From NCBI GenBank assembly GCA_016218925.1, contig JACRCR010000014.1:1-42867 (forward strand): a stretch of DNA of 42,867 bases. Direction: 5' to 3'. The stretch's first letter is position 1; each line of letters begins with the position of its first letter. The DNA is from Deltaproteobacteria bacterium (GTDB lineage Bacteria; Desulfobacterota; Binatia; UBA1149; CAITLU01). A program made the position numbers and the translations under genes. The notes beneath the pieces are model-generated. The model did not search any database, was not told where the DNA came from, and saw only the letters and a program-made list of their open reading frames with translations. Below are positions 4,662 to 31,243 of this stretch, in pieces.

Positions 4662-4677
4662 CCCCACCGCAGTAGGG
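4662..4677 (-). promoter_or_regulatory. Shared upstream element CCCTACT..GTGGGG (copy 1)
   Basis: Read on the minus strand this is CCCTACTGCGGTGGGG, an imperfect dyad about 65 nt upstream of the chosen GTG of the VWA gene. A very similar string (CCCTACTTGTGGG) lies upstream of the neighbouring DUF4215 protein at 7909-7921. Being in front of two functionally similar surface-protein genes suggests a shared regulator or sigma factor, but only two copies are visible and no binding protein can be named. Confidence 0.3.
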
Positions 4678-4825
4678 CAAGCACGCGTCCCAAGAACGCG
4701 GCAGTCCGTTCACAACGGTCCAGATGGAAGGCGGAGGTCGATCCTGGGCGGCGGAGGCGTAGAGCTACGTCGTAGCGCCCGGGGACGACGTCCAACGCCG
4801 CAGCCGGGCCTCTCTCGACGGACTG

Positions 4826-12398: not shown

Positions 12399-15248
12399 TC
12401 AGCGGGTCGAGACCTCGAGCGAGATCGACGCCGTCGCCGCAGTGCCGCTTCGGCCGCCGTCGAGAATCTGCGCCGTGACGACTCGGATCGGCCCCGCCGG
12501 AGTCGACGCTTTGAGTCTCGCCTGTACTTTGAGCAGGAGCGTCCGGTTCCGAGTAGGCGGCAAGTTGCTGACACTCACCAGGCAGTTCTGCCAGACCTGC
12601 ACTTGGATCGCCGCTATCTCGGCGGCCGACAACCGGCTGTCTACCAGGATCGGCAGCGAGATTTCCCACCCCGGACCCCCGCTACAGAAGTTGACGTCGA
12701 TCGTTCCGGACCCGATCAGCCCGCTGTAATAGATCCCGAACGGGCCGTACGGATCACCTGGCTTCACCGCAACCGGCGGCGTCTTCCAGCCCAGGTCAAG
12801 GGGCAGACCGACTTCGGTCAGCGCGATGATGTCGCCGGTTGCGCGCACGCCGCGAGCAACGCTGTTGTCCACCAGTGCGGCCGACCAGTGCGCGAAGCCA
12901 TCAGGCAGCCCGCTGAAAGAGCCGCGGATCCGCAGCTTGCCGCTCGGTGCCGGCAGGTTCGCCCACGCCAGCTTGGTGTCGTCGCCGTTGAGAACGCCGC
13001 CGGCCAACCCGCTCGGAATCAGCAGCTTGAAAATCGCGAGGCCGGCGCCGTCAACCGGAAGCGCGAGCGTGAGCTGGTTGGTATTGCCGGCAACACTCGG
13101 ATCGCTGACGCCGGCGTAAGACAGTTCGCACGACACGTCTGCGGAACGGTTCTTGTTGAAGTCCCACGCGACGTGATCGGGACACGCCAGCCGCAGCGAC
13201 AATCCCGTGCCGCTGCGGTCGACTCCCATGATCGTGAAGCGCACCTTCGCGGATGCAACCATGGCACCGGCAATACGAAGTTCCGCGCGGTTGGTGATGA
13301 CGGCACCGACCGCGACCGTGTCGCTGATGCGCGTGTGTACGTGCACCAGGACGGTTCCGCGGTACGGGGCGAGGTCGAGCGAGAGAACCCCGTCGGCGCC
13401 TGGGGCCGCAGGCGCCGTCTTCAGCACTTCGGGAGGGTCGACCTCAACGGACTCGAACACCAGATCTGGCGGCAGCATGTCGCGCAGCACCGAGGGGTTG
13501 GTTTCCAGGCCCTTGCCGGTGATCTTGATCTGATACGCCACGCGCGCGCCCGGCAGCGGGTCGTCCTCGATCCGCTTCTGCATATTCATGTGAGCTGCCA
13601 CCGGCCGCGCGCCGGGGCAGCGCTTGAGCGCCGCCTCCAGAGCGCGCCCGCGATCTCCGGCGGCATGTTTGTGATGGACGAACACCGCCTTGTTGGGATT
13701 GTCCGAGGTGCGACAATCTCCGTGCGCCGCCGGCCCCTCCACGTGGATTCCCAGCACCGACCCGTCCGGCAAGACCAGCGGCGATCCGGAGGTGCCCGGC
13801 TCGGTATCGACGAAGTGATCGATGACGTCCGAGTCCGACTCGCGAATCGCTCTGCCGGAGGCGCTCTGCTGCATCACATCCATCTGTCTGGGACCGCTGT
13901 CGGATCCGTGGCCGATCACGACCGCGCCTTCGCGGTCGCCGAACGCATCGCTGAGTCCGAACGCATCATGCTGAACGTTGGGACGTACTTGGAGCAGCGC
14001 CCAGTCGTGCGGCGCGCCCGACTGGCCGGGCAGCGTGACTTCCAACTGTTCGCCGTCGAGAAGCTTTGCCCGGTACTGCTCAAGCCCACCTCCGAGAGTC
14101 TGGTCCGTGCAGGACTTGCCCGCGTGCAGACCGGCGGGACAGGTGTGCGTGGCCATGTTGCAATCGATCGGCTTGCCGTCGCCATCGAGGCCGCAGCCGT
14201 ACACTCCGCAGATCAGCGTGGCAGAAAGATTCCGCTGCCGGGGATAGCTCTTCCCTTCTTGAAACATCAGGTGGCCGGCAGTCAGCAGGCACAGATTCTT
14301 GTTGATTCCGGGTTCGATGAAGAACGCCGTGCCGACGAAGGTCCGTGCCACGCAGCGGGGATCAGCGGAGTTCGCGACCGGACAAACGACGGCACCGCAG
14401 GCAAGCCCGGCACGGGTGCCTCCCTGGCATATGTTATCGCGGCAGGCCTCGGGCGCTCCGCCGGTGCTGGAGGGACACCAGCACTCTACCGAGGTGTCCA
14501 TCCCGCAGACACCCCGCTCCGCGACCAGCAAACAGACGCGATCGTTGTAGGAGGCAACGCGGCTATCGCGCTGATCACAGATCGAGCGCGGCGTGGGCAC
14601 GAGCGAGCGATCGCCGGCGTAGCCGTGCTGGACTTCGGCAACGACGAAGCGTGAGACGCGCGCGTAGGGTCCGACGAACAGGGCGACGGAGACGGAGCCC
14701 GTTCCCAGGTAGCGCGACGCGCCGCGGCCCGCGCGGAAGTCTCGGCGGGTGAGCACGTCGAATTCGCCCGAGGCGTCGGTAGCCCGGATTTCGATGCGGT
14801 CGCCGCGCACCAGCACGACGTTCTCGAAGTGCAGGCGCAGCCACGGCGCCCCCTCCACTTCGACGACATCGTCGAAGATCCGCGTCGGTCCCGCGGCGCT
14901 GGCGGCGTGCGCGCCCGAATCGATCCGGACTTCGACGCGCTCGCCGACCTGCGGCGCCGCCTGTTGGGCGCCGCCGCAGTCCGGCGCTGCGGTGAAGCCG
15001 GCTCCTTCGGACATCGATGCCGGCCGGCTTGCAGCATCGTCGGGTGCCAGGCAGCGCCCGGCATCGGTCAGACACAACGCCGGCTGACCCGGACCAGTCG
15101 CGGCCTGCCAGCGCAGCGCCCAAGCCGCCGCGGGCGCCAACACCAGTGCCGCAAGCGTCACAAGGACGACGCCGGCCACGCAGTGGCGCGGCCCTCGTAC
15201 GGCATTCCAGCCTGCAAACCCGGTGTGCAACGCTGCTCGAGTCTTCAT
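12399..15248 (-). CDS. Secreted trypsin-like serine protease with C-terminal Ig/DUF11-like domains
   Basis: This 949-residue protein has a signal peptide (VAGVVLVTLAALVLAPAAAWA). The ATG at 15246-15248 follows a very strong GGAGGT Shine-Dalgarno. The N-terminal 270 residues are Cys-containing and of unknown family. A trypsin-fold domain follows with the triad readable as LLTAGH (His near 326), HDWALLQV (Asp near 413) and GTSGSPLVLPDGSVLGIHVEG (Ser near 485). After about residue 540 come beta-sandwich segments: VAYQIKITGKGLETNPSVLRD looks like the DUF11/isopeptide-type repeats of surface proteins, and the last 350 residues resemble further Ig-like modules. It is probably an exported protease or protease-like adhesin. 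The substrate is unknown and no anchor signal is seen. It is convergent with ackA. Confidence 0.8.
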   Translation of the reverse strand: MKTRAALHTGFAGWNAVRGPRHCVAGVVLVTLAALVLAPAAAWALRWQAATGPGQPALCLTDAGRCLAPDDAASRPASMSEGAGFTAAPDCGGAQQAAPQVGERVEVRIDSGAHAASAAGPTRIFDDVVEVEGAPWLRLHFENVVLVRGDRIEIRATDASGEFDVLTRRDFRAGRGASRYLGTGSVSVALFVGPYARVSRFVVAEVQHGYAGDRSLVPTPRSICDQRDSRVASYNDRVCLLVAERGVCGMDTSVECWCPSSTGGAPEACRDNICQGGTRAGLACGAVVCPVANSADPRCVARTFVGTAFFIEPGINKNLCLLTAGHLMFQEGKSYPRQRNLSATLICGVYGCGLDGDGKPIDCNMATHTCPAGLHAGKSCTDQTLGGGLEQYRAKLLDGEQLEVTLPGQSGAPHDWALLQVRPNVQHDAFGLSDAFGDREGAVVIGHGSDSGPRQMDVMQQSASGRAIRESDSDVIDHFVDTEPGTSGSPLVLPDGSVLGIHVEGPAAHGDCRTSDNPNKAVFVHHKHAAGDRGRALEAALKRCPGARPVAAHMNMQKRIEDDPLPGARVAYQIKITGKGLETNPSVLRDMLPPDLVFESVEVDPPEVLKTAPAAPGADGVLSLDLAPYRGTVLVHVHTRISDTVAVGAVITNRAELRIAGAMVASAKVRFTIMGVDRSGTGLSLRLACPDHVAWDFNKNRSADVSCELSYAGVSDPSVAGNTNQLTLALPVDGAGLAIFKLLIPSGLAGGVLNGDDTKLAWANLPAPSGKLRIRGSFSGLPDGFAHWSAALVDNSVARGVRATGDIIALTEVGLPLDLGWKTPPVAVKPGDPYGPFGIYYSGLIGSGTIDVNFCSGGPGWEISLPILVDSRLSAAEIAAIQVQVWQNCLVSVSNLPPTRNRTLLLKVQARLKASTPAGPIRVVTAQILDGGRSGTAATASISLEVSTR

Positions 15249-16281: not shown

Positions 16282-16411
16282 ACGAGCGGCACGAGTCCGT
16301 TCGCTGCAACGAGCGCGACCGCCCAATGTGTCGCGTGAGAGTTGATTGTCCTCACATCGGTGTTATCCGTCGCGCGAACAGTCGATTGTGATCTGTTCGT
16401 TCCTACCGATG

Positions 16412-16440
16412 CGATGGTGTCGGTTCGACACCTTCCATCG
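16412..16440 (+). promoter_or_regulatory. 5'-leader hairpin just ahead of the PKD/NHL gene ribosome site
   Basis: GGTGTC (16416-16421) can pair with GACACC (16427-16432) around a GGTTC loop, and outer CGAT/ATCG arms can extend the stem with a TTCC bulge. The hairpin ends a few nucleotides before the AGGAGG ribosome-binding site, so it may affect mRNA stability or initiation. The fold was made by eye. Confidence 0.35.
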
Positions 16441-16458
16441 GTTCAGGAGGAAGGGGAG

Positions 16459-19400
16459 ATGGAAAGGATCGGCCTCGCGGCTTTCCTGCCTTCCATTTTG
16501 CCGGTCGTTGTTTCCGACTCCAGCGAGCGACGAGGACGCTGCACGGCTGCGCGGCGCGGGCTCTATCGAGCGTTGCTGATCGTGCTGGCCGCCGGCGCGG
16601 CCTTCGATTCGCCGCCGGTGTTCGGCTTCGGAATGGGCAACAAGTCGCCGGTCGTCGACTCCGTCAGTGTCTCTCCGAGCCCTGTTCCTGCAGACGACAA
16701 CGCTACGATCACCTGCGCCGCCCACGACCCGGACGGACAGATCGTATCGATGGAGCTCAGCGTTTCCGCCGGTGCGCTGCCCGGCGGCGTAGCCAGCGCG
16801 CCGGTCGCGATCACACAGGCACCTTCGGTCGTCGGGACGCTTGGGTGGAGCACTCCGGGGCCGGGCTCCTACACCGTGCGCTGCGACGTGAAGGACAACG
16901 GTGGGCTCTTCGGCGGCTCGGCCGGCGCCTCCAAACTGATCGACGTCGAGATCACCGAGGCGGCGAGCCGAGCCCCGACCATAGAATCGTTCAGCGCAAC
17001 CGCGACCAGCGCGTTGAGCGGAGAAACCATCACCGTGTCCGTTGTAGCGAGCGACCCGGAGGGCGCCGCACTCGCCTATGAATGGACGGCCACGGGTGGA
17101 ACTCTGGCGGAGTTCGGCGCGACCGCGCAGTGGACCGCCGCCTGCGACCCTGGGCTCTACGAGGTGAGCGTTGTCGTCACCGATCCTGACGGCCAGAGCG
17201 CGGCAGCGTCGCTGCATCTGCAGGTCGCATTCGCCATACCGGGCCAGAGCATGCCCCAAGGCATGTCGGGCAACTTCCGTCCAACGCGTCTGGTCGTCGA
17301 TGGAGCCGGCTATGTCTACGCGGCCGACCCGGTGTCGGGCACCATCGAGGTCTTCACGCCGCTTGGTACCTGGCTTCGCCGTATTCCGGTTGCGGGACGG
17401 CCGAGCGCGGTGGCGGTAGACGGCGAGCGCACTCTTTACGTCGCCGACGCCGAGCGCGGTCAAGTCTTCATTCTCGATCTCGATGGAATCGTGGACGCCG
17501 GAGCTTCTCCACGCGGCGTGCTCGGGACGGGACGCGGCGAGTTCGAAGCGGTTACCGACATGGCCGTCGATCCGGCCAGCGGCGACGTCTACGTCGCCGA
17601 CGCAGGCGCGGCCGTGGTGGCGGTCTATGACGAGACGGGCGCGAAGATCCGCACGATCGCAATGCCCGGCAGCTATCCGGGCGGCCTCGCGCTCGGCCCC
17701 GGCGGGGACCTCTATGTGAGCGACGTGCGTCACGGCAGCGTGACGCGCTTTTCTCCCACCGGCGTGTTGCTCGACACCGCCGGCAGTTTCGGCGGCCACG
17801 CCGGTCAGCTCACGCGCGTCAACGGCGTTGTCGTGGCCGCGGACGGGTACATGCTGGCCGTCGATACCTTCCAGTCCCGACTCGGCGTGTTTGCCGGCAC
17901 CCAGTTCGTCGCGTTCCTGGGATCCCACGGAATCGGCGCAGGTGAGCTGAGCGTTCCGATCGATGTGGCCGTCGATCGGTGGGGACGCGTCCTGGTCACC
18001 AACACCGACAACGGACGCATCGAGGTGCTGCTGCGCTCGAGTGACAGCGTGCCCGAGTGCTCGAGCGACAGCGACTGCGACGGGATCACTGACGCCGCCG
18101 AGCTTGCTCGCGGGCTCGACCCCTTCGATGCGCGCGACGCCTACGCCGACGACGACGGCGATGGCGTGACCAACACTGCCGAGATCGCGCTGGGAACCGA
18201 TCCTGCCGCTGCCGACAGCGACGGCGACGGCGTCAGCGATTTCAACGAGGCTTGCGAAGGCACCGACCCTATGGACCCGCGTGACCAGGGGTTCTGGGTC
18301 GATGCCGGCGCAGACTTTGCCACTGCGCCGACAGTCGTCGCGATGGACGCGAGGGCCTCGCGCGTACACGGCAACGCGCCGGTGACGTTTGGGTGGTCGC
18401 AGGTCGACGGTCCCGAGACCGTTACAATAAACGGTGCCGATAGCGCCATGCCGTGGTTCGTGGGCCGCAAGCCCGGCTCGTACCAGTTCCGGTTGTTCGT
18501 CGGCGACGGCAGCCGCTGGAGCGGCGAGGGTCGAGTGAAGATCGAGATCCTCGACGTTGCGCCGACCGCCGACGCCGGCCCGGACGTCGCCTACCTTGAT
18601 CCACACGGCACCCGCAAAATCACCCTCGACGGCCGCTACAGCTCCGATGCCAACCAGGACGAGCTGAGCTACTCGTGGGTGCAGACCTCCGGCCCCGCCG
18701 TCCAACTGCGCGATACCGAGACTGCGCGGCCGAGCTTCAAACCGGGGCAAGCCGGGCTCTTCGCCCTGGATCTCACGGTGAGCGACGGCGGGCCGGGGCC
18801 CGGCAGCACCGATCGCGTATATGTAGTCGTCGAAAGCAGAACCGAGCACATTCCGGTGGCCGCCGCTCCCGACGCACTGCGTGCGATCGCGGGCACCCTG
18901 ATCAACTTGGACGCAAGCGAGAGCGTCGACATCGACGGTGACTCGCTCACGTACTCGTGGAGACAGCTTGGCGGACCCGCCGTGACGCTGGCCGATTCCG
19001 GCTCGGCGGTCGCTTCGTTCCGGCCGACCGAGAGCGGGCTGTACGACTTCGAGCTTCGCGTCAACGATGGTCGCCACGACAGCGTTCCTCACGTCACCGT
19101 GGTCGCGGTTCACGATGCGAGCGGCAGCGGTCCCTCCGCGAACGTCGAGCGCGAGATCCGCAGCGGCGCCGTGCTCGACCCGATCATCCTGGGCTGTCCG
19201 ATCACCGGCGCTGCCGATGCGACCTGTGCCTGGCGGCAGATCGAGGGCGTGTCGGTTCCGATCTCGGGCAGTGGCGCTGCCAGCGCTTTCGTTGCCACCG
19301 AGTCGGGAACCTACGTGTTCGAGCTCGAACCCTTCGATAGCAGCGGACCCGGTGTTCCGGCGCGGCTGTGGTTCTCGCTCGACGATCCCGACGGCAATCG

Positions 19401-19698
19401 CGTGCCTTCGGCGACGGCAACCGCCCATGCCGACACCTGGCGCGTGGGCGCAAAGATCGCGCTGCGGGCGACCGAGATCGTCGACGACGGCAGGAGAGGC
19501 AATCTCGACTACGTGTGGACGCAAGTCACGGGGCCACCGGCGCTGCTGATGCATCCGAACCGGCGCCGAGCCAGGGTTACAGCGCTGCTCGCGGGCCTCT
19601 ACGCCTTCGAGCTGAGAGTCAGCGACGGAATCGACCGCAGCCCTGCTTTCTATGTGGAGTACGTCATTCCAACGAGCGACCGCGGAGGTGAACAGTGA
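16459..19698 (+). CDS. Secreted PKD/NHL-repeat protein with calcium loops, partner of the giant cytochrome
   Basis: The protein has about 1079 residues. The ATG at 16459 is preferred over the upstream end of the frame at 16342 because AGGAGGAAGGGGAG lies directly before it. A hydrophobic export segment (YRALLIVLAAGAAFD) lies at residues 36-50. Order of parts: two PKD/Ig-like domains (about 62-255), an NHL-type beta-propeller of about six blades (about 270-530; blades such as PSAVAVDGERTLYVADAERG), TSP3/EF-like calcium loops (about 533-608; DADDDGDGVTNTAEIALGTD in pattern), then four or five PKD/REJ-type domains (LDASESVDIDGDSLTYSWRQ type) to the end. The stop overlaps the GTG of the cytochrome gene. 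NHL proteins often accompany multihaem cytochromes in metal-reducing Deltaproteobacteria. A scaffold or docking role is inferred. Confidence 0.85.
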   Translation: MERIGLAAFLPSILPVVVSDSSERRGRCTAARRGLYRALLIVLAAGAAFDSPPVFGFGMGNKSPVVDSVSVSPSPVPADDNATITCAAHDPDGQIVSMELSVSAGALPGGVASAPVAITQAPSVVGTLGWSTPGPGSYTVRCDVKDNGGLFGGSAGASKLIDVEITEAASRAPTIESFSATATSALSGETITVSVVASDPEGAALAYEWTATGGTLAEFGATAQWTAACDPGLYEVSVVVTDPDGQSAAASLHLQVAFAIPGQSMPQGMSGNFRPTRLVVDGAGYVYAADPVSGTIEVFTPLGTWLRRIPVAGRPSAVAVDGERTLYVADAERGQVFILDLDGIVDAGASPRGVLGTGRGEFEAVTDMAVDPASGDVYVADAGAAVVAVYDETGAKIRTIAMPGSYPGGLALGPGGDLYVSDVRHGSVTRFSPTGVLLDTAGSFGGHAGQLTRVNGVVVAADGYMLAVDTFQSRLGVFAGTQFVAFLGSHGIGAGELSVPIDVAVDRWGRVLVTNTDNGRIEVLLRSSDSVPECSSDSDCDGITDAAELARGLDPFDARDAYADDDGDGVTNTAEIALGTDPAAADSDGDGVSDFNEACEGTDPMDPRDQGFWVDAGADFATAPTVVAMDARASRVHGNAPVTFGWSQVDGPETVTINGADSAMPWFVGRKPGSYQFRLFVGDGSRWSGEGRVKIEILDVAPTADAGPDVAYLDPHGTRKITLDGRYSSDANQDELSYSWVQTSGPAVQLRDTETARPSFKPGQAGLFALDLTVSDGGPGPGSTDRVYVVVESRTEHIPVAAAPDALRAIAGTLINLDASESVDIDGDSLTYSWRQLGGPAVTLADSGSAVASFRPTESGLYDFELRVNDGRHDSVPHVTVVAVHDASGSGPSANVEREIRSGAVLDPIILGCPITGAADATCAWRQIEGVSVPISGSGAASAFVATESGTYVFELEPFDSSGPGVPARLWFSLDDPDGNRVPSATATAHADTWRVGAKIALRATEIVDDGRRGNLDYVWTQVTGPPALLMHPNRRRARVTALLAGLYAFELRVSDGIDRSPAFYVEYVIPTSDRGGEQ

Positions 19699-22600
19699 GA
19701 GCGCGCATCGCGAGCGTTCCCGTCGCAGCCGCGACGCCAGGTCGCGCGGCCGCCGCGTGCGCCGTGGTCGCGGCGCTGCTCTGCCTCGCTCACCCGACCG
19801 CGGCGAGCGACCTTCCGCACTGGGGTGAGAACTTCCCCAACACTTGCCAGGACTGCCACAGCGCGCACAACGCGGCCGGAATGAGTCTCACCAACAGGGA
19901 AGGCAACGCCAACCTGTGTCTGACCTGCCACGCGTCGTTCGGCATGGTGTGGAGTTCGTCCCACCAAGCCGTGCCGGGAGTGGGCGGAACCTCGCACCGC
20001 TGGGACGCCGCCGCCGATCAACCCGCGCGCGGCGCGTCGTTGCCCGGCGACCACGAGATGTTCGTACGCCTGGACGGCGGCACCAACCTCATGTGTTCGA
20101 CCTGCCACGACGAGCACTCGCAGAGGAACGCGCCTGCCGATCCGCTTGCGCCCACGACCCCGGGACAGCCCGGACGCCACTTCCTGCGCAAGGACAACTC
20201 TGCCGACGGTCTGTGTCTGGAGTGCCACAGCGCGCTGGAAGGAGCGCCGGGCACTGCTCGCGCCTGGACCGGCGATGCGTTGCCGCATCCGACAGGAGCC
20301 GACCTCGTCGGCGATTCGATGTTCTTCTCTCCGCCCAACGACATTGACGGGCGACCGCAGGTCTCGGGTTGGTCGGGAATCGCCACCGGTGGTTCCACGA
20401 CCGCGTTGCGCGACGACACCGCCAGTTGGCCGGACCTGGTCGGGCAGGTGGTGCGAATCACCAGCGGCGGCAATGCCGGCGAGACGCGCACCGTCGAATC
20501 GATGACAGGCGCCGACCAGATCCATTTCGAGGCCCTTCAGTCCGCCGTCACCTCCGGCGCGCGTTACGAAATCGACAGCGACGGCAACGTCTCCAACAAC
20601 CTGGTTCTGCTCGACGCCGGCGGCGCGAACTACACCAGCGGGAAGGTGAGCTGTTCGTCGTGTCACTCCGTGCACTTCGGCGACTCGAATCCGAACACCT
20701 ACGACGACGCCACCTCCGAAGGCGGTGACGGCTATCTGTTGCGGCGAGGCCGCGACGATACCACCTGCCAAGGCTGCCACCACGTGCTCACGCACAGCAG
20801 CGCCACTACCAGCGACCGCTACGGTACCTGGGGGGAGAGCTTTACCTGCCTGACCTGTCACGGTGTCCACGACTGCACCAACGTCGCTTTGATCAACGAC
20901 GTCGTCGCCACTCCGTACAGCGGCAGCCGCAGCGTGGACCTGCGATCGATCTCGGGCGGCGTCGAGCCTCATGGGTTGGTCGACAGCCAGTCGCCGGGAA
21001 ACGGCATCTGCGAGGTCTGTCACACCAGAACCCGCAACTCCGCGCCCCACACCGCCGGGACGGCGAATTTCACGGCTGGCCAGACTTCGGTCACCTGTGC
21101 CGGTGACTGCCAGTGGCCTGGCGACATCGTCGCCAACTGGGAGATCCGCCGCGCTGCCGACCCACCCTCGGCCGACACTGCCGTCGCGTCGGTCAGCGCC
21201 ACCGAGATCACGCTGGTTCAAGGGTACCTCGGCACCACCGCGAGCGGATCCGAGTACCTGGCCGTCAATCCGCGTTTCCAAAACAACGGCCAAGGTCGCG
21301 GCGCCTCGGGAAACGAGCACTACTCGGGCGACTGCCTCGCCTGTCACAGCCACCAGAACGGATTCGGACACGGCGGCGGTGGCTCCGGCAGTTGCGCCGA
21401 CTGCCACGGGCACGACGACGGCTACGACAGTAGGGAGTACTTCGGGTCCACACACAGCCACTCCACCCACACCGACGACGACGCAGACGACGCGCGCGGC
21501 CCCGCTCTGGCCTGCGACGCCTGCCACGACACCAGCTACTTCCCAGCTTTCAAGTCCGGCACCGACAGCGACGGTAGCGGGCACTACGAACTGGACGAAA
21601 CCGACGTGTGCGACGCCTGCCACAGTTCCGGCGGCAGTTATGACGGAGTGAACGATCCGGTGCTCGGCGCCAAGCCGAACTGGGACAGCGGCATCTATTC
21701 GGGCGCGCGGCCGACCGCAGGCAAGGAAAAGTGGTGCGCTACTTGTCACGACGAGGCGCCGTCGCAGATCTACGGCGTCGTTGCACCTGACGTCGTTGGC
21801 GACGAGAACGGCGCTTACACCTACGGCACCGGGTGGGGATACTTCAAGACCGGCCACGGCCTGGCGGTCGGCCAGAACTACCCGTCCAAGGGCGGAGTCG
21901 AGACCGTGTCGGGGCGGCCGCTCTACTGCGACACTTGCCACGACTACTCCACCGATCACGTCGACGGACTCGCCCGCAGCTACGACGACGGCGACAGCGT
22001 CGCGACCGATCCGAGCCTCTACCGCATTGGCTACCGCCTCAATCTGGTAGGCGGCCAGGAGCCGATGCGTGTGCCGCTTCCCGCCAACACCGGCAATACC
22101 GCGGACAACTACAGACTCTGTGCGCAAAGCGGTTGTCACGCGGCGGGGCCGTTCACCGATTCGGCGAACATGAACACCAACCTGGTGACCGACGGGGTCA
22201 ACCGGCACCAGGAGCACCTGGTGCTGAACAACCAGGCGATCTATCCCAGCGATTGGTCGGGAAGCCACAACAGCCGGATCAACTGCGTCGCCTGCCACGA
22301 CGTACACGGCTCGACACGCCTGGCGATGGTGCGCGACGGCAATCTGATCGGCGCTCAGCCCGGCGTGCAAATCTGGTACAAGAACGACGCCATAACGGTC
22401 TTCAGCACAGCGAACTCCAACCCGCCCGAGCCCGAGGCGCTGCCGCTGTCGGCCAGCGACGGGACGGTCTGGATCGGCCTGAGTTCGGGCAACCTGTGCA
22501 CGCACTGTCACGGAAACGGCAACGCATGGGGCGAAGACCGGGAGCCGTTCCAGAACGTCGAACAGACTCCGACCTTGGCGTGGATAGACGAGCCCGGCTA

Positions 22601-25600
22601 CGGCTCCGACGGCGCCGACCCAGATAGCCGAGCGTCCGCGGGTGTATTCAACTTCAAGGTTTCCTACACCGACCTGAACAACGATGCTCCCGGCTCGATC
22701 GAGTTGTGGATCGATCTCGACGATGACGCCGTCTATGCGCCGACCGAGAAGTACGCGCTCACGCAGCTCGAGGTTGGGGACGCCGACTTCACCAACGGCA
22801 AGATCTATGGGATCGCGCTCGCGGTCGCGGTCGCGCGCGTCGGCGACGGCGTCGTTCGTTACCGTTTCTTCGCGTCGGACGGGAAAGCCGACGCCGATGG
22901 TCCACCCACCGGTGACAGCACCATCGTTGTACTGAATGGCGCGCCGGTTCTCGATTGGACGGGAGAAGCTCAGTTCGTCGGCGATGGTGTGAACCCGAAC
23001 GCCGGTGGCAGCGGGTCGTCTTTCGAGTTCCGCATCGACTACCTCGACGCCGACGACGAACCGCCGACCTCGATACAGGTTTGGGTGGATGAGAACGACA
23101 ACGATCTCTACGAGGCAGGCGAGAAGTACGCCATGACCGGAGTAGACGCCGACACGACCTACACCGACGGCAAGCGCTACTCGAGAAGTCTGAACCTCGC
23201 GCACGCGGGCGACGGGTACCTGAGCTACCGCTTCTATGCGTCCGACGGCTTGGCTGTCGCTGCTGGAGAGGCGACCGCGAACGCCGTCGTGGCGGTGCTG
23301 GCCGGAACCAATAGTCCGCCTTTCCTCGAGTTCATCGAAGCATCGTGCACGACCGACGGAGTCAGACCGGCGGTGGGCGCCGATGGCGCAGACTTCGCGT
23401 TCAGCGTCATGTACACCGACCCGGACAGCCAGTGCCCGCCCGCGGCCGGCGATATCCAGGTTTGGGTGGACGCGGACGATTCGGGAACTTTCGAGGCCGG
23501 CGAGAAACATGATCTGAGCCCGGTCGACCCGGGGGACGTCACTTGCTCCGACGGCAAGGCGTACAGCCTGACGCTGGGGTTATCGGCGGCGGGCGACGGT
23601 TCGCTCGCGTATCGCTTCTACGGCTTTGACGGCACCGACACGGCGATCGGGGATCCTGCGGGCGAGTTCGCCGTGATGGTGACCAATGCCCTGAAGGTTC
23701 GCAGCTCCGGCGGCGCCGGCTGGTATGACAGTATTCAAGCCGCCGTCGATGCCGTGAACGGCGCGCACACGGTGCTCGTCTACGAGGGCACCTACTACGA
23801 GAACATTCTTTTCAACGGCGCCAACGACGCCGATACCGTCGTGCGCTCGGTGTGCGGGCCACAGGCTACCACCATCCGCGGCACGGCTGCGGTGGTCATG
23901 TTCCAGAACAACACCGGGAATCTGCTCGACGGCTTCGAGCTCACCGGTGGCACCACCGGTGTCTATTTCAACGGCGCGCACGCGACCGTCAACGACTGCC
24001 GGATCCATGGCATCAGTGGAGGGACAGGCGCCGTCTACACGTCGAACTCAGCTTCTTCGATGGCGCTCGCCAATTCGCAGGTCTACGGCAACACCAGAAA
24101 CAGCGGAGCCGGGATCCTGATCAACGGCGGGACCGGACACACGATCACCAACAGCACGATCCACCAGAATTCGGCCGTCCACGACGATGACTATTCCGGG
24201 TGGGGCGGCGGTCTGTTCGTGCAGAACGCCGACCTGGTCGTCACCGACACCGTCGTGCGTGACAACACCGCCTCGCGAGGCGGCGCCGGCATCTACAACA
24301 ACGGCTCGACCGTGCGGCTGGTTCGCACCACCGTCACCGGCAACGTTGCCTCCGGAGCCGGAGGCGCGCTGTACCTGACCAACGCGTCCTCGAGCGCCTC
24401 GCTGGAGAACTGTATCGTCGCCGGCAACGAAGCCTCGCAGGCCGGCATGGCCTACGTCAACGGCGGCGCCTTCGATGTCGTCAACACCACCATCGCCGAC
24501 AACCGCGCCACCAGCGGCAACAGCGGTGCCATCTTCAACCAGAACGCCACCTCCACGATCCGCAACAGCATCGTGTGGGGCAACGTCGCCGCTGCGGGGG
24601 GGCATATCGCGTACCTGAACGGCGGTTCGATGCTGCTCGGCGACTGCGTCATCGCCAGCGGCGGCGACGGCAAGTTCACCAATGTTCCGTACTTTGACGG
24701 GAACGTGACGCCGATCGTCAGCGGCTACGCCTCGCAGCGCGACCCGCGATTCGTCGGCGGCGGCAACTATCATCTCCAAGCGTCATCGGACGGCGTGGAC
24801 CACGCCGACGGCGCCGTCGCGCCGGCCGAGGACATCGACGGCCAGAGCCGGCCGCAGGGCGAGGCCGACGACATCGGTGCCGACGAGTACCTATCGGCAG
24901 GCGATGCTCCGGCGTTGTCCTGGACCGGTGAGAGCGGCTACGCCAGCGACGGAGTCGACCCGAACAGCGCTGTTGGCGGTGCAGCCTTCACGTTCCGAGT
25001 GGATTACACGGACGCCGGCAACGATCCGCCGCTGTCGATCGAAATCTGGGTGGACAGCGACGACAACGGCGCGTACAGCAGCGCGGAGAAACACCACCTC
25101 GATGCGACCGACGGCGGCGACGACGACTACACCGACGGCAAGCGTTACAGCACGACACTGGTGCTGACCCACGGCGGCGACGGCGCGCTTGCGTATCGCT
25201 TCTATGCGACCGACGGCAGCTCCGACGCGTCGGGAGCGCCGGCGGCCGACTCGCTGGTAGCTGTGGGCAACAACGTCCCGGCGTTGAACTGGACCGGCGA
25301 GGCTGACTACCTCGGCGACGGAGTCCATCCTAACAGCGCCGCCGGCGGCTCCGTATTTGCGTTCCGCATCGACTATTCCGATGCGGACAACGCTCCTCCT
25401 GCTTCGATCCAGGTCTGGGTGGACGAAAACGACAGCGGCCTCTACGACGCCGGCGAGAAGTACGACCTGGTGGCGACAGACGGCGGCGACGACAACTGCG
25501 CCGACGGCAAGCGCTATGCGAAGTCGTTGGCGTTGAGCTTCGCCGGAGACGGCGCTTTGCACTACCGGTTCTTCGCCAGCGACGGGACCGACGACGCCAG

Positions 25601-27674
25601 CGGCGCTGCCACGGCGAATTCGACAGTGACCGTCGTCGACAACGTGCCGGTGTTGTCGTGGACCGGCGAGGCCGGCTACGGCGCCGACGGCGTGAGCCCG
25701 GATTCCGGCAACTCCGGCGCGGTCTTCACGTTCCGCGTGGATTTCTCTGACGCCGACAACGCGGCCCCGGCCTCGGTGCAGGTGTGGGTGGACTCGGACG
25801 ACGACGACGCCTACGCGGCCGGCGAGAAACACGACCTGATCGAAACGGACGGCGGTGATCACGACTACACCGACGGCAAGCGCTACAGCGCGGATCTGGT
25901 CTTCGGCTACTCGGGGGACGGAGTTTACCGTTACCGGTTCTTCGCTTCCGACGGCAGCGCCGCCGCAGTCGGCGATCCGACCTCGGACCAGACGGTGACG
26001 GTACTAAACGTGGCGAACAACGCACCGACTCTGAGCTGGTCGCCGGCCGCGTGCAGGAGCGAAGGAGTGAGGCCTCCAGCGGGCTCGGCGGGCGCCGACT
26101 TCCAGTTCCTGGTGAACTACACCGATGCCGACGGCCAGTGCGCTGTGAGCATCCAGGTGTGGATCGACGAGAACGACGACGCGACGTACGCAGCGGGCGA
26201 GAAGTACAACCTGCTAGCGACCGACGGCGGCGACATCGACTGCACCGACGGCAAGCTCTACGCAATGACGCGAACGCTGTCCCAGGCGGGCGACGCAGTT
26301 CTGACCTATCGCTTCTACGCCAGCGACGGAGTGGACCCCGCCGGTGGCGCGCCTGCGACTGGCGGCGAGGTCGGCGTGCATGGCGGCCTCACGGTCCGGC
26401 CTTCGGGTAGCGCGCTTGCCTACGACTACACGTCGATTCAGACGGCGGTGGACAATTCCTCGAGCGGAGACACGGTCGTAGTCTATCCGAACGACGACTT
26501 CTCGGCGGCTTCCTATGGTGCGGTGTTGGTAGGCAGTTCCAAGAACAACCGCACGATCCTCGGCGCTTGCGGTGCGGAGCTCACGACCATCTCGGGCGGC
26601 GCCTATCCGGTCACGTTCCAGGACAGCACTTCGTGCGTGCTCGACGGGTTCAGTCTTACCGGCGCAGGCAGCTACGGGATGCGTTTCCTACGTGCCCATT
26701 CCGGTCTCATTCGCAACAGCCGGATCTTCGGCAATTCCAGCGGCATCGAAGTCAACGACTCAAACCCGGCCGGCGTGCAGAGTTGCCTGATCTATGGCAA
26801 CAGCAGCCGAGGGCTCTTCTCGGGATACGCGACCAGCACCGTCAACATCTCGGACTCGCAGATCTATCAGAACGGCGGCGCCAGCAGCCAAGGTGCGGGT
26901 CTGATGATTCAAGATGGCGTGGCAACCGTCAGTGACTCGATCATCCGCGACAATCCGGCCAGCGGTTCGGCGTCGCTCGGAGGCGGGGTCTACCTGCTCC
27001 GAAGCAAGACCGGCACCACCTTCACGCGCACCACGATCGAGGCGAACCGCGCGACCAATGGCGGCGGCGTCAACACCAACGCGGCTGTCGCGAGCTTCGA
27101 CAAGTGCACCATCGCAGGTAACGTGGCCGTCACGAGCGCGGGAGCGGTCTACGTCGGTAACTCCACCGTGAACCTCACCAACACCGTCATAGCCGACAAC
27201 CAGGCGGGCAAAGCGGGCGCGTTCTACATGAACGCCGGCGCACTGCTCTTCGACAATACGACTTTCGCCGGCAACCACGCCACCAGCGGCAACGGCGGCG
27301 TGTTCGCGGTCTGCAACCTGACGTCATTGACCGTCCGCAACAGCATCTTTTGGAACAACACGGCCAGCGCGCAGGGTCACAACGCGTACAAGGAGTGCGG
27401 CGGTTCCAACGGCTATATGACGGTACTGGACTCGGACGTTTCGACCGGTGCAGGCTACTTCGACGGCAAGAGCCCGGCGACGGGCGGAGACATGATCGAT
27501 CCCGCCCAGGATCCATTGTTCTTTGGAGGCGGCGACTACCACATCCAGAGCGGCTCTCCGGTCATCGACAGAGCCAACAATTCGTACGCGCCGGCCGACG
27601 ACCTCGACGGCGACACGCGGCCCCGCACCGTTGGCGACCCGGCCGACATGGGCGCGGACGAGTACGTTCCTTGA
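19695..27674 (+). CDS. Giant multihaem c-type cytochrome fused to Ig-like repeats and two beta-helices
   Basis: The 2659-residue product starts at a GTG with GGAGGTG upstream, overlapping the previous stop (GTGA). A signal peptide ends at TAAS near residue 38. Sixteen CxxCH motifs lie at Cys 51, 75, 134, 174, 320, 358, 385, 439, 547, 567, 607, 639, 681, 745, 864 and 935. A CX4CH motif (CAQSGCH) lies at 809, and a haemless CAGDCQ at 468. Residues about 958-1333 are three Ig-like repeats (WTGExxYxxDGV to GDGxLxYRFxASDG). Residues 1334-1735 form a beta-helix ending in DDIGADEY. Residues 1737-2230 are four more Ig-like repeats, and 2231-2659 a second beta-helix ending in DMGADEY. The helices resemble right-handed helices of 'choice-of-anchor Q' proteins. 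Periplasmic or extracellular electron transfer is inferred; substrate and partners are unknown. Confidence 0.88.
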   Translation: MRARIASVPVAAATPGRAAAACAVVAALLCLAHPTAASDLPHWGENFPNTCQDCHSAHNAAGMSLTNREGNANLCLTCHASFGMVWSSSHQAVPGVGGTSHRWDAAADQPARGASLPGDHEMFVRLDGGTNLMCSTCHDEHSQRNAPADPLAPTTPGQPGRHFLRKDNSADGLCLECHSALEGAPGTARAWTGDALPHPTGADLVGDSMFFSPPNDIDGRPQVSGWSGIATGGSTTALRDDTASWPDLVGQVVRITSGGNAGETRTVESMTGADQIHFEALQSAVTSGARYEIDSDGNVSNNLVLLDAGGANYTSGKVSCSSCHSVHFGDSNPNTYDDATSEGGDGYLLRRGRDDTTCQGCHHVLTHSSATTSDRYGTWGESFTCLTCHGVHDCTNVALINDVVATPYSGSRSVDLRSISGGVEPHGLVDSQSPGNGICEVCHTRTRNSAPHTAGTANFTAGQTSVTCAGDCQWPGDIVANWEIRRAADPPSADTAVASVSATEITLVQGYLGTTASGSEYLAVNPRFQNNGQGRGASGNEHYSGDCLACHSHQNGFGHGGGGSGSCADCHGHDDGYDSREYFGSTHSHSTHTDDDADDARGPALACDACHDTSYFPAFKSGTDSDGSGHYELDETDVCDACHSSGGSYDGVNDPVLGAKPNWDSGIYSGARPTAGKEKWCATCHDEAPSQIYGVVAPDVVGDENGAYTYGTGWGYFKTGHGLAVGQNYPSKGGVETVSGRPLYCDTCHDYSTDHVDGLARSYDDGDSVATDPSLYRIGYRLNLVGGQEPMRVPLPANTGNTADNYRLCAQSGCHAAGPFTDSANMNTNLVTDGVNRHQEHLVLNNQAIYPSDWSGSHNSRINCVACHDVHGSTRLAMVRDGNLIGAQPGVQIWYKNDAITVFSTANSNPPEPEALPLSASDGTVWIGLSSGNLCTHCHGNGNAWGEDREPFQNVEQTPTLAWIDEPGYGSDGADPDSRASAGVFNFKVSYTDLNNDAPGSIELWIDLDDDAVYAPTEKYALTQLEVGDADFTNGKIYGIALAVAVARVGDGVVRYRFFASDGKADADGPPTGDSTIVVLNGAPVLDWTGEAQFVGDGVNPNAGGSGSSFEFRIDYLDADDEPPTSIQVWVDENDNDLYEAGEKYAMTGVDADTTYTDGKRYSRSLNLAHAGDGYLSYRFYASDGLAVAAGEATANAVVAVLAGTNSPPFLEFIEASCTTDGVRPAVGADGADFAFSVMYTDPDSQCPPAAGDIQVWVDADDSGTFEAGEKHDLSPVDPGDVTCSDGKAYSLTLGLSAAGDGSLAYRFYGFDGTDTAIGDPAGEFAVMVTNALKVRSSGGAGWYDSIQAAVDAVNGAHTVLVYEGTYYENILFNGANDADTVVRSVCGPQATTIRGTAAVVMFQNNTGNLLDGFELTGGTTGVYFNGAHATVNDCRIHGISGGTGAVYTSNSASSMALANSQVYGNTRNSGAGILINGGTGHTITNSTIHQNSAVHDDDYSGWGGGLFVQNADLVVTDTVVRDNTASRGGAGIYNNGSTVRLVRTTVTGNVASGAGGALYLTNASSSASLENCIVAGNEASQAGMAYVNGGAFDVVNTTIADNRATSGNSGAIFNQNATSTIRNSIVWGNVAAAGGHIAYLNGGSMLLGDCVIASGGDGKFTNVPYFDGNVTPIVSGYASQRDPRFVGGGNYHLQASSDGVDHADGAVAPAEDIDGQSRPQGEADDIGADEYLSAGDAPALSWTGESGYASDGVDPNSAVGGAAFTFRVDYTDAGNDPPLSIEIWVDSDDNGAYSSAEKHHLDATDGGDDDYTDGKRYSTTLVLTHGGDGALAYRFYATDGSSDASGAPAADSLVAVGNNVPALNWTGEADYLGDGVHPNSAAGGSVFAFRIDYSDADNAPPASIQVWVDENDSGLYDAGEKYDLVATDGGDDNCADGKRYAKSLALSFAGDGALHYRFFASDGTDDASGAATANSTVTVVDNVPVLSWTGEAGYGADGVSPDSGNSGAVFTFRVDFSDADNAAPASVQVWVDSDDDDAYAAGEKHDLIETDGGDHDYTDGKRYSADLVFGYSGDGVYRYRFFASDGSAAAVGDPTSDQTVTVLNVANNAPTLSWSPAACRSEGVRPPAGSAGADFQFLVNYTDADGQCAVSIQVWIDENDDATYAAGEKYNLLATDGGDIDCTDGKLYAMTRTLSQAGDAVLTYRFYASDGVDPAGGAPATGGEVGVHGGLTVRPSGSALAYDYTSIQTAVDNSSSGDTVVVYPNDDFSAASYGAVLVGSSKNNRTILGACGAELTTISGGAYPVTFQDSTSCVLDGFSLTGAGSYGMRFLRAHSGLIRNSRIFGNSSGIEVNDSNPAGVQSCLIYGNSSRGLFSGYATSTVNISDSQIYQNGGASSQGAGLMIQDGVATVSDSIIRDNPASGSASLGGGVYLLRSKTGTTFTRTTIEANRATNGGGVNTNAAVASFDKCTIAGNVAVTSAGAVYVGNSTVNLTNTVIADNQAGKAGAFYMNAGALLFDNTTFAGNHATSGNGGVFAVCNLTSLTVRNSIFWNNTASAQGHNAYKECGGSNGYMTVLDSDVSTGAGYFDGKSPATGGDMIDPAQDPLFFGGGDYHIQSGSPVIDRANNSYAPADDLDGDTRPRTVGDPADMGADEYVP
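22562..23691 (+). repeat. Coding Ig-like repeats, block 1 (three units)
   Basis: Three units of about 120-130 codons share VWVDxxDxxxYxAGEKY, TDGKRYS and GDGxLxYRFxASDG. The third unit is distinct: it has GVRPAVGADGADF and three Cys (EASC, SQCP, VTCSDG). The acidic VWVDENDNDLYEAGEKY-like loop may bind calcium. Confidence 0.75.
24905..26383 (+). repeat. Coding Ig-like repeats, block 2 (four units)
   Basis: Four further units of the same family as block 1 lie after the first beta-helix. The last unit again carries GVRPPAGSAGADF and three Cys in matching places (PAAC, GQCA, IDCTDG), like the last unit of block 1. A duplicated repeats-plus-helix block explains the pattern best. Confidence 0.75.
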
Positions 27675-27914: not shown

Positions 27915-29993
27915 CTACGGCGCTCGCTCCAGGTACGGCATCACGTCGACCGGCCCGTTGACTCTGAGCGACGGCGACTCCTTGGTGCACCACCAATTGT
28001 CCTCCGCCGCGACCACGCCGGTCGAGACGTTGTCGACATCCCTGCGAGCACCGCCTGGTTCGTAGTTGTCGCAGATTGAATTGGCGCCCGGACTGACGAC
28101 GGTCACGCCGTCGATGTCGAGACCAGCTCCGCCAAGATCGACGCGCGCATCTCCCGAGGCAGCCACGCCGCCGAAGCCGTACTCCGACGAGCCTTTCCCG
28201 CCGTTGGCGCGCACGTCGTTGGCCGACAGCGAAACCCGCGCATTGCCTCCCGCCCAGACGCCGCGCAGCGCGCACGCCTGGATCGAGTTGCCGTCCAGAA
28301 TCCCGGCGGCGTAACGTCCAAAACGCACCCCGCGGCGGCACGACGTGACCGTGCTGCGCCGCATCTCGACGACGAGACCGCCGGGTGCGGCGCCCGAAAA
28401 ACGCGGGCCGTCGCATGCAAAGGAACCATCGGCACCGGGACCCATGCGGGCGTCCTCGACGCGGAAGCGCCCGCCCTGCGCCATGCGCAGCGGAGTGCGG
28501 CAACCGATGAAGTCGATGTTCGAGAAGATCGCGTTGTAGTGCTCGCGAACGCGTGGATCCGTATCGGTGGTCGCGAGGCTTCCGCTGTTCTGCGAGCACT
28601 TGTCGCACCCGTCGCGCACCTCCAGGTTGCGGAACACGTTGGCCACTCCGGCACCGACGCTGCCGAAAGCATCGTCGCAGATGCGCCCGAAGCGCACGTT
28701 CTCGACCACGCCGCCGACGCCCTGGGCACGGATCCCGTCGAAGAACCCGGTGACGGCGATGTTGCGCACCACGTCGCCGTCGCCGGCCAGCAACAGGAAA
28801 GTGGTGCCGCTATCGACGTCGGGACACGCACAGGTGCCGTCATCCTCGAGCCCGGCTGCGCACTGACTCGCCTCGACGGGAATGCGCCAGCACAGCGGGT
28901 CCATCTCGAACGAGATGTTGCGATCGAGTCCGTCGATGACCAAGCCATCGCAGTCGACACGACGCGGGCGGGTGCCGCTGGCGTGCGCGATCGGGATGAC
29001 GGTGTCGCGACAATCGAACGTGATGTGGCCGCTCGGCGCTCCGCACGACGTGATAGCCTCTTCGAAGGCTTGCTCCGTGCATGGAATCGCGCACGAGAAG
29101 GAACCGGGGACGTTGACGCAGGCACGGCCCTGCGGGCATGACGCCTCGCCGCTCAGGCACTCGTCGATGTCCTGGCACGAACCCGGCTCGCCGCCAAAAC
29201 CCGCCGCGCAGCGGCCCCGCGCCGCTGCGTAGTCGGGCTCCGAGTCCGCGGGACACGCAATACAATGCACCTCCGCGTCGACCCTGGCACAGGTCTCGCT
29301 AAGACAGGTCGCACTGCAGCCGTCCGCGTCCCGGACGCCGCCATCGTCGCAGGCCTCGAACCCTTCACGACGGCCGTCGCCGCAGCGCACCCGCAGACGT
29401 GCGGCGTCGGCTTCCACTTCACTCTCGATCCGCGCGGCGACATCGTCGGGGGCGATGTCGCCGCGACAGCCCTCGGCAGCGCCCTCGCTCCACGCGCGCT
29501 CGAACGAACGGCGCTCGCGCTCGGTGCACGCCGCGGCGTCGCTCGAATCTTCCTGGTCGCTGACCGCGCGACACTGCACGTAGGTCGACGCATAGCCAGC
29601 CACCGCGCGCGCTCGCGTTCGCGCGCAACGCGGAGCCACCGCCAAATCTCCGGCGATGGTCTCTTCGAACACGTCCATCGGCCAGGTCGCCGCGCCATCC
29701 AGCCCAAGGCTCTCGGCGCCGGCCGGGCATACAAAGCCCTCGGCCGCAGCGGCGACCTCGGCGGCTTCGAGCATCGCGGCGATGCGCAGTTCGGCGCGCT
29801 CGCGACAGCGCGCCGTTCGATCGGCGGTGGACGGCGCCGCAGCGCAGCGCAGCAGTCGCGCCGTTCCCCAACGCACCGCAGCGAGTTTGGATCGGTAGCA
29901 GTCCAGCGCCTGGTCGGACTGCGCGCGACAGGCCGGGGCTGCCACCAGCAGCAGACACAGAAGCGAACTCAGGCGCCGCTTCGTGCTTCGCAT
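27915..29993 (-). CDS. Secreted Cys-rich / EGF-like / beta-helix protein, short paralogue of the 4826-7879 product
   Basis: This 692-residue protein starts at the ATG 29991-29993, which gives the export signal LSSLLCLLLVAAPACRAQ at once and avoids overlapping galK; the open frame itself runs to 30128. The Cys in the signal (PAC) could also make it a lipoprotein, though the context is not a clean lipobox. Order of parts: a Cys-containing helical region (LDCYRSKLAAVRWG), one DUF4215 motif (CGDGRREGFEACDDGG, ADGCSATC), an EGF-like stretch (CQDIDECLSGEASCPQG), then a right-handed beta-helix (DGDVVRNIAVTGFFDGIRAQG and repeats). The region ITFDCRDTVIPIAHASG to DGLDRNISFEMDPLCW is nearly collinear with the larger paralogue. 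The main difference is the loss of the 31-residue repeat array. Surface location is inferred. Confidence 0.85.
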   Translation of the reverse strand: MRSTKRRLSSLLCLLLVAAPACRAQSDQALDCYRSKLAAVRWGTARLLRCAAAPSTADRTARCRERAELRIAAMLEAAEVAAAAEGFVCPAGAESLGLDGAATWPMDVFEETIAGDLAVAPRCARTRARAVAGYASTYVQCRAVSDQEDSSDAAACTERERRSFERAWSEGAAEGCRGDIAPDDVAARIESEVEADAARLRVRCGDGRREGFEACDDGGVRDADGCSATCLSETCARVDAEVHCIACPADSEPDYAAARGRCAAGFGGEPGSCQDIDECLSGEASCPQGRACVNVPGSFSCAIPCTEQAFEEAITSCGAPSGHITFDCRDTVIPIAHASGTRPRRVDCDGLVIDGLDRNISFEMDPLCWRIPVEASQCAAGLEDDGTCACPDVDSGTTFLLLAGDGDVVRNIAVTGFFDGIRAQGVGGVVENVRFGRICDDAFGSVGAGVANVFRNLEVRDGCDKCSQNSGSLATTDTDPRVREHYNAIFSNIDFIGCRTPLRMAQGGRFRVEDARMGPGADGSFACDGPRFSGAAPGGLVVEMRRSTVTSCRRGVRFGRYAAGILDGNSIQACALRGVWAGGNARVSLSANDVRANGGKGSSEYGFGGVAASGDARVDLGGAGLDIDGVTVVSPGANSICDNYEPGGARRDVDNVSTGVVAAEDNWWCTKESPSLRVNGPVDVMPYLERAP

Positions 29994-30037
29994 CGCGATT
30001 TCGGCGGCGCCCATCCGGGGGCGGTCAGTCAACCAGG

Positions 30038-31243
30038 TCACGTGTAACCGAATCTTCCCAGAGAATCGCCGGCGAAGGAACCTCGATTCTTCACGCACGC
30101 ACCGGCTGCCACGAGCGCCACCGCGCACCCTCCAAAACCGCCGCCGGTCATCCGGGCTCCGTAGGCGCCATCCGCAAGCATGCTCTCGACGAGACTGTCC
30201 ATCTCGGGACGGCTCACTTCGTAGAGATCGCGCGCAGATGCGTGGCTCTGCGTCATCAGCTTACCCAGATGGGTCCAGTCGCACGCCTCGATCGCCTCAA
30301 CCGCGGCCAGTGTGCGGGCGTTTTCCTCGACTACGTGGCGGGCGCGGCGGTAGAGCCGATCGTGGCCACCGCGCCGCAACGCTTCCACGCTGTCGGAGGT
30401 CGCGTCGCGCAGCGAGCCGAGTCCCAGAAGGTGCGCCGCCAGTCGGCATTCGCCCACCCGCCGAGCGAACTCGCCGCCGCCGAGATCGTGGGGCAGCTCG
30501 GAATCGACGACGACGATGCGAACTTCGCTGCTCGGCAACTCCACGCGGCGCCAACTCTCGCTGCGACAGTCGATCAGCAGCAGATCGCCGCCGCAGGCAA
30601 GGCAGGCCGCCATCTGGTCCATGATGCCGCACGGGACACCGGCGTAGCGCTGCTCGGCGCGGCGGCACGCCCTGGCTTTGACGACCGGGTCGAGAACTCG
30701 ACCGCACAGCGCTTCGATCACGCCGGCGAGCGCGACTTCCAGGGCCGCGCTGCTGGAAAGCCCGGCACCGACCGGAACGTCAGAGTCGATCCACGCATCG
30801 AAACCGCCCGGGTCGAGCCCTTCGGCGCGACACTCGGCGACGACGCCGCGAACATAGTGGGCCCAGCCCTGCGTGCGTGGCGTGGTGGCGACGCCGAGGC
30901 CGTCGAGATCGAGTTCGACGGCGGCGTGGTCCGTTCGCGCGACGACGTCAGTGGTCATGCTAGCGACGCCTCGCGCCGTTCCATCGATGCGTTCAGCGGC
31001 GATACCCGCGCTGAACAGCCTCACCCGCCGATCGCCGCGCGGCGCGGCGGCGACGCCGGTGCGCCGTGCGATCGCGAACGGCAACACGAAGCCTTCGTTG
31101 TAGTCGGTGTGCTCGCCGATCAGGTTGGCGCGGCCCGGCGCCGACGCGTAGAAGTGCGGCTCGGCGCCGTAGCGGCGGCGAAAACCGAGTTCGGTGCGGC
31201 CTCGCAGCGCGCCCTCGTCGGCGGGGCTGACGATGCGCGCCAT
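30038..31243 (-). CDS. galK: Galactokinase (GHMP kinase) with atypical C-terminus
   Basis: This 401-residue protein phosphorylates galactose to galactose-1-phosphate in the Leloir pathway. Clear motifs are APGRANLIGEHTDYNEGFVLP (galactokinase signature), VPVGAGLSSSAALEVALAG (GHMP phosphate loop), CGIMDQMAACLACGGDLLLIDCRS and MTGGGFGGCAVALV. After GGFGGC, E. coli GalK has 43 more residues, but here only 28 follow, and the tail (ACVKNRGSFAGDSLGRFGYT) does not resemble family members. This points to a frameshift or a 3' rearrangement. The gene starts 4 bp after the stop of the acyl-CoA ligase. Catalytic residues are intact, so activity is possible. Confidence 0.88.
   Translation of the reverse strand: MARIVSPADEGALRGRTELGFRRRYGAEPHFYASAPGRANLIGEHTDYNEGFVLPFAIARRTGVAAAPRGDRRVRLFSAGIAAERIDGTARGVASMTTDVVARTDHAAVELDLDGLGVATTPRTQGWAHYVRGVVAECRAEGLDPGGFDAWIDSDVPVGAGLSSSAALEVALAGVIEALCGRVLDPVVKARACRRAEQRYAGVPCGIMDQMAACLACGGDLLLIDCRSESWRRVELPSSEVRIVVVDSELPHDLGGGEFARRVGECRLAAHLLGLGSLRDATSDSVEALRRGGHDRLYRRARHVVEENARTLAAVEAIEACDWTHLGKLMTQSHASARDLYEVSRPEMDSLVESMLADGAYGARMTGGGFGGCAVALVAAGACVKNRGSFAGDSLGRFGYT

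Follow-up and report, generated by a model that had tools for sequence, protein, structure and literature searches.

This analysis suggests that a protein of 2659 residues (termed here the giant) is an exported relay of 17 haems that works with an NHL partner protein and that carries, in the same chain, an Ig stalk and surface- or glycan-binding beta-helices; the probability of this reading is put at roughly 0.6. The giant is encoded at 19695-27674 (+) of the window, that is, of the whole stretch of DNA that was analysed: a 42,867-nucleotide contig assigned to a Deltaproteobacteria bacterium. An electron carrier with an adhesive part is the best reading of what is described below: a single open frame, haem sites and candidate distal histidines conserved in relatives from other phyla, tails that vary in a modular way across the family, a linked and sometimes fused NHL gene, and an association with OmcE-type cytochromes both in genomic context and in the N-terminal module of the giant itself.

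The original prediction, made from the sequence alone, described 16 CxxCH motifs and one CX4CH motif in the N-terminal third, followed by Ig-like repeats and two right-handed beta-helices. The motif count proved exact, and the tail is borne out by Pfam Beta_helix matches, by an AlphaFold2 (AF2) model of residues 924-1735 and by the identity between its two modules. The HMM search of the regions that it proposed returned, from Pfam and NCBIfam, doubled CXXCH, Beta_helix and choice-of-anchor Q matches, and the proposed search for relatives of the same architecture found colinear ones in Calditrichota, in Chlorobiota/Bacteroidetes and in the giant's own phylum; neither of its two concerns, namely that the frame might be a chimera and that cytochrome and helix might be separate genes in relatives, was borne out. 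That prediction did not cover the NHL partner, the connection with OmcE nanowires or the doubling of the tail module.

Results

The haem part

The frame contains no internal stop, and its GC3 is uniform (0.78-0.86 over the whole frame), which fits one coding unit. The CxxCH motifs start at residues 51, 75, 134, 174, 320, 358, 385, 439, 547, 567, 607, 639, 681, 745, 864 and 935 and the CX4CH motif (CAQSGCH) at residue 809, all 17 lying inside residues 51-939; when the first 1000 residues were shuffled as a chance control, CxxCH occurred 0.07 times on average and at most twice. Pfam matches to the giant comprise Beta_helix (E 5e-29, four stretches), doubled CXXCH (PF09699, 4e-5) and a single GEVED match, and NCBIfam adds choice-of-anchor Q in two stretches. 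The features are listed in Table 1.

Table 1. Features of the giant, its partner gene and the paralogue cluster (window positions unless a contig is named; residues are those of the giant)
Feature	Position	Strand	Basis or remark
NHL beta-propeller + PKD + TSP3 protein, secreted (partner gene)	16342..19698	+	Pfam; true start codon uncertain
Predicted signal peptide, residues 1-38	19695..19808	+	By eye; no lipobox seen
OmcE-like tetrahaem module, residues 39-200; haems 51, 75, 134, 174; invariant His 42, 58, 101, 141	19809..20294	+	hhalign, alignments
Non-haem insert, residues ~205-310, between haems 4 and 5	20307..20624	+	Alignments, AF2 model
Haem segment, residues 311-450; haems 320, 358, 385, 439	20625..21044	+	Motif scan
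Haem segment, residues 541-760; haems 547, 567, 607, 639, 681, 745	21315..21974	+	MtrC/MtrF domain II/IV-like in relatives
Last haem segment, residues 765-945; CX4CH 809, haems 864, 935	21987..22529	+	Motif scan, alignment
CX4CH motif CAQSGCH	22119..22139	+	CxxCH in relatives
Ig-like repeats 1-3, residues 957-1333	22563..23693	+	AF2, Foldseek, sequence; acidic loops of calcium-binding type
Beta-helix 1 and anchor-Q segment, residues 1334-1735	23694..24899	+	Pfam Beta_helix, AF2, NCBIfam choice_anch_Q
Ig-like repeats 4-7 (second module), residues 1736-2231	24900..26387	+	Sequence, module identity
Beta-helix 2 and anchor-Q segment, residues 2232-2659, with stop codon	26388..27674	+	Pfam Beta_helix; NCBIfam choice_anch_Q 2615-2657
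Own-genome paralogue cluster (L111)	G000:C18:1-16900		18-haem, NHL, 13-haem paralogue, NHL, OmcE-like tetrahaem, 9-haem, 671-aa, 11-haem, cytochrome b561-type

The CX4CH motif is very likely a haem site, because it aligns with CYSCH or CVQCH in relatives. Two sequences of the giant's own phylum (L150 and L151, which lack haems 1-2) show the spacings CX5CH and CX3CH at two further sites, and expanded motifs thus recur at conserved haem sites. Between the giant and its Calditrichota relative (see below) the haem sites correspond one to one (17/17) and 18 other histidines are conserved; judged from the alignment, these candidate distal ligands would suffice for bis-His ligation of every haem. The haem segment at residues 541-760 is 52-53% identical to relatives, and PF22113 was matched in this central segment of the Calditrichota and Chlorobiota homologues.

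For the haem part as a whole, AF2 gave a model too poor for use (mean pLDDT 44, from an alignment of 29 rows), and a Foldseek search with this model gave no match at E <= 0.001. The best phmmer match of the haem part among PDB sequences, to an octahaem nitrite reductase (E 0.0036), is uninformative, and the haem-part alignment profile matches many multihaem chains (3OV0 best); these profile matches are taken to support a multihaem fold only. The non-haem insert is modelled with pLDDT mostly >90 and, in the alignments, is common to the Binatota relatives P0003 and P0004 and missing from P0002, P0005, P0006, P0007 and P0008; its top Foldseek matches are phage tailspikes and depolymerases, and are weak (E >= 0.01).

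The tail

The tail consists of three Ig-like repeats, a right-handed beta-helix, four further Ig-like repeats and a second helix, each helix closing with an anchor-Q-type segment; the start motifs of the seven Ig repeats lie at residues 972, 1097 and 1221 and then at 1752, 1875, 1998 and 2123. The AF2 model of residues 924-1735 (mean pLDDT 78, with the Ig and helix parts mostly at 80-95) has three beta-sandwich repeats and, after them, a beta-helix, and the assignment of helix 2 is based on direct Pfam Beta_helix matches and on 44% identity between the two modules. Foldseek matched the Ig array to tandem-Ig proteins, among them the bacterial adhesins SiiE and FdeC, and the acidic loops of Ig repeats 1-3 may bind calcium. 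An enzymatic role for the tail was considered and rejected, inasmuch as a Pfam search gave no match to a polysaccharide-lyase or glycoside-hydrolase family.

Relatives and modular tails

Relatives were sought across GTDB r220, with each species represented by one genome. End-to-end relatives were found in a Calditrichota MAG (L033; 1564 aa, 17 CxxCH) and in Chlorobiota and Bacteroidetes MAGs (L036 and L038; 1978 aa and 26 CxxCH, mutually 92% identical), while two more genomes of the giant's phylum encode versions of 1526-1530 aa with 11 CxxCH. The cytochrome-tail junction is colinear in all of these relatives, which have one Ig-helix module as against two in the giant, and within 395 genomes of the phylum together with the relatives' genomes the full Ig and helix tail was matched only in haem-bearing frames. 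That the giant is an assembly chimera of two genes is therefore rejected as next to impossible: the identical junction recurs in independent genomes from several phyla, and the frame has no stop and a uniform GC3.

Other members of the family carry other tails. The giant's own genome encodes, on contig C147, a paralogue with 20 CxxCH and a LamG tail; a genome of the same class encodes a member with 16 CxxCH and LamG; and a deltaproteobacterial member (L042:12276-23696) combines 15 CxxCH with four LamG stretches in >3800 aa, its frame being open at the locus end. A KSB1 member has 21 CxxCH and 13 cadherin-like stretches, and a Myxococcaceae member has MopE-type repeats. A same-family relative (G003) has two tandem NHL-cytochrome pairs without a helix, followed by ResB- and CcsA-type genes. 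NHL and giant-cytochrome homologues also occur in a cultivable relative, Anaeromyxobacter oryzisoli SG63 (L083). In a Nitrospirota protein (L056:11243-17128) a helix-like match stands ahead of 14 haems, an order opposite to that of the giant and the same as that of ANME MHC-C.

A tree built from the central haem part is compatible with one origin each for the helix types and the LamG types. By path length the closest sequences to the giant are those from Chlorobiota, Calditrichota and Bacteroidetes, and not L150 and L151 of its own phylum; this position suggests, with modest tree support, transfer between phyla.

The NHL partner and its surroundings

The NHL gene lies directly upstream of the giant (Pfam: NHL 4e-15, K319L-like PKD 2e-48, TSP3_bac 3e-11), and the two frames overlap by 4 bp, which suggests translational coupling. 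Of 63 unfused family genes, 45 have an NHL homologue immediately upstream, compared with 4 of 57 that have one downstream, and at two loci (L035:6621-14474 and L043:3434-10747) NHL/PKD and a multihaem cytochrome are fused in one open frame. The Calditrichota NHL partner ends in a Por-type sorting (secretion) tail; that gene pair is preceded by genes that, judged by their sequence starts, resemble a Rieske/cytochrome b complex and by more multihaem cytochromes, and a link to quinol oxidation in Calditrichota is plausible on this basis.

Among the Pfam-annotated frames of the 42.9-kb contig, no porin, OmcE, mtrA, mtrB or other cytochrome gene was found. Divergently from the NHL-cytochrome pair, 12399-15248 (-) encodes a large protein of secreted type in which Pfam recognises a trypsin-like domain (Trypsin_2, E 1e-9). 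Large surface-type proteins are encoded at 1274-7879 (-) and 27915-30128 (-), and have between them a VWA domain, DUF4215/EGF-like matches and a calcium-binding EGF match with a weak beta-helix match.

The OmcE link

Elsewhere in the same genome, the paralogue cluster on contig C18 resembles the Uet (undecahaem electron transfer) gene cluster; its 671-aa protein, which is without a Pfam match, may be a porin. The four-haem protein of this cluster, beside the 13-haem paralogue, is a homologue of OmcE (7TFS, E 7e-22; family profile, 4e-58), encoded at G000:C18:6616-7275 and hence on a different contig from the giant. Of 78 family loci, 27 have a full-length OmcE-like gene at a distance of about 10 kb or less. 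Among the 395 genomes of the phylum, an OmcE homologue (cut-off, E below 1e-30) is present in 7 of the 8 genomes that have the N-terminal module versus 38 of the 387 others (p about 1e-6), part of which a common EET lifestyle could explain. The genomes of L150 and L151 give only weak OmcE matches. The 16-chain PDB entry 9YUQ, a 'Putative multiheme cytochrome c', is likewise an OmcE homologue. Within the collection of papers searched, there was nothing on EET in Binatota nor on a combination of nanowire and NHL protein.

The N-terminal module is itself similar to OmcE. An hhalign comparison with the OmcE-like family (98.8%, score 112) spans all four haems, as against scores of 37-52 for the controls, namely three other haem segments of the giant and the 18-haem protein; with haem residues masked, the match shrinks to the segment of haems 3-4 (about 36 columns, 85%; controls below 1%). 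In the alignments, four histidines outside the haem motifs are invariant or almost so in both the module and OmcE, and their order among the motifs is the same (H-CxxCHxxH-CxxCH-H-CxxCHxxH-CxxCH). In both OmcE and OmcS a ligand histidine comes from the neighbouring subunit (PMC9473688, PMC12307469).

Discussion

Proposed function and its alternatives

From these observations we infer the following general mechanism. The giant would be one of a widespread group of multihaem cytochromes of the doubled-CXXCH kind. These would act outside the cell alongside an NHL-propeller protein, in organisms whose genomes as a rule encode OmcE-type cytochrome nanowires too. Its haem part, with 17 predicted c-haems, would relay electrons between an outer conduit or nanowire and an outside partner, and the Ig stalk and beta-helices would hold this relay on a polysaccharide, a matrix, a mineral or another cell; in other members LamG or cadherin-like tails would take the place of this tail. 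Several lines of evidence support the relay and adhesin reading: the one-to-one haem sites in the Calditrichota relative; the end-to-end relatives in other phyla and the interchangeable LamG, cadherin-like and MopE tails; the upstream linkage or fusion of the NHL gene and the Por-type tail of the Calditrichota partner; the OmcE homologue of the same genome and the OmcE-like genes at family loci; and the Ig and helix fold, with its matches to SiiE and FdeC. Counted against it is the lack, on this contig, of a porin, OmcE or other cytochrome gene.

A more specific idea, which is tentative and on balance rather unlikely, is that the giant forms an end-adaptor of a nanowire: its OmcE-like head would cap or seed an OmcE filament, with His42 as a shared axial ligand; the tail would be an adhesive tip or base anchor; the NHL propeller would help assembly; and the interchangeable tails would set what the wire plugs into. 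This idea draws on the module similarity and the gene association. The haems and invariant histidines of the module follow the OmcE order and its hhalign match outscores the controls, although little beyond haems 3-4 remains after masking; adjoining OmcE or OmcS subunits share a histidine ligand, as the idea would require of head and filament; and OmcE is concentrated in genomes with the module, while the sequences lacking haems 1-2 come from genomes with weak OmcE matches. Yet the OmcE and giant genes of this genome are on different contigs, and the co-occurrence may stem from a shared EET lifestyle.

The tail could also serve only for matrix retention, or it could be removed by proteolysis. 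A narrower version of the best explanation would have the tail do no more than keep the cytochrome within the matrix or envelope of its own cell, without recognising any substrate or partner outside. This is a possibility to be taken seriously, though a doubtful one; anchor-Q segments, and partner proteins rich in Ig and PKD domains, are what one typically sees among surface and matrix proteins, and nothing direct speaks against it. Quite improbable, by comparison, is that the tail acts as a pro-domain or as a block on assembly, to be cleaved off by a protease so that the mature cytochrome works without it. There is a precedent in the OmcZ precursor, whose C-terminal Ig domains are cut off by a serine protease before polymerisation (PMC9473688, PMC12307469), and the secreted trypsin-like protein is encoded nearby; but a mere block would hardly keep the conserved Ig and helix cores of a 1700-aa tail, duplicated here, and the variation in the kind of tail across the family fits binding better than blocking.

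The anchoring of nanowires and the points at which electrons enter and leave them constitute a key open problem (PMC12307469). A conserved gene pair that unites an OmcE-like head with additional haems and an exchangeable tail for binding is, in several phyla, a concrete candidate for such a contact point. Should the general relay and adhesin reading alone be true, bacteria, like ANME archaea, would still encode electron-carrying adhesin-like proteins, here with a modular tail; if the giants do act as end-adaptors, they would be the missing end-pieces of OmcE-type nanowires.

Comparison with known systems

The original prediction called such an architecture unusual. Its rarity holds, but the wording is tempered by cytochromes with pectin-lyase-like, Ig or fibronectin domains that are already published, namely ANME MHC-C, the OmcZ precursor and OetF. 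Compared by description, ANME MHC type C likewise joins a very large multihaem cytochrome and a pectin-lyase-like (beta-helix) domain, proposed to serve partner-cell recognition, in one chain (PMC9012536); it is, however, archaeal and its helix is N-terminal, whereas the giant's helices are C-terminal, and an NHL partner and an Ig stalk are not described there. OetF of syntrophic sulfate reducers (PMC10553843), again compared by description, is an EET-cluster cytochrome with adhesive-type (fibronectin) domains, which differ from those of the giant. The OmcZ precursor of Geobacter (PMC9473688) shares with the giant a multihaem N-terminal part, C-terminal Ig domains and one expanded-loop haem motif, but it has eight haems and no beta-helix, and its Ig tail is removed before polymerisation.

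The outer-surface cytochromes MtrC and OmcA resemble the giant insofar as the central haem segment of its relatives matches Pfam MtrC/MtrF domain II/IV; they are decahaem lipoproteins, whereas the giant has 17 haem sites, no lipobox seen and no mtrA or mtrB on its contig. The likeness to OmcE of Geobacter (PDB 7TFS) is confined to the N-terminal module, where four haems and histidines stand in the same order and profile similarity is significant; OmcE is a stand-alone protein of about 230 aa with four haems that polymerises, unlike the giant of 2659 aa with 17 haem sites. In the Uet pathway of Tenderiales and Gallionella, UetJ occurs with the NHL proteins UetHI (PMC10734462). UetJ has 11-12 haems, as against 16 CxxCH and one CX4CH here, and a tail like the giant's is not reported for it; moreover, the 42.9-kb contig is without the UetA tetrahaem, UetC porin and UetDEG trihaem genes. 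Both systems nevertheless combine, as far as a comparison by description goes, a doubled-CXXCH multihaem cytochrome with an adjoining NHL gene (in the giant, PF09699 and an overlapping upstream NHL gene), and the paralogue cluster on C18 also has an extracellular-type tetrahaem cytochrome and a possible porin.
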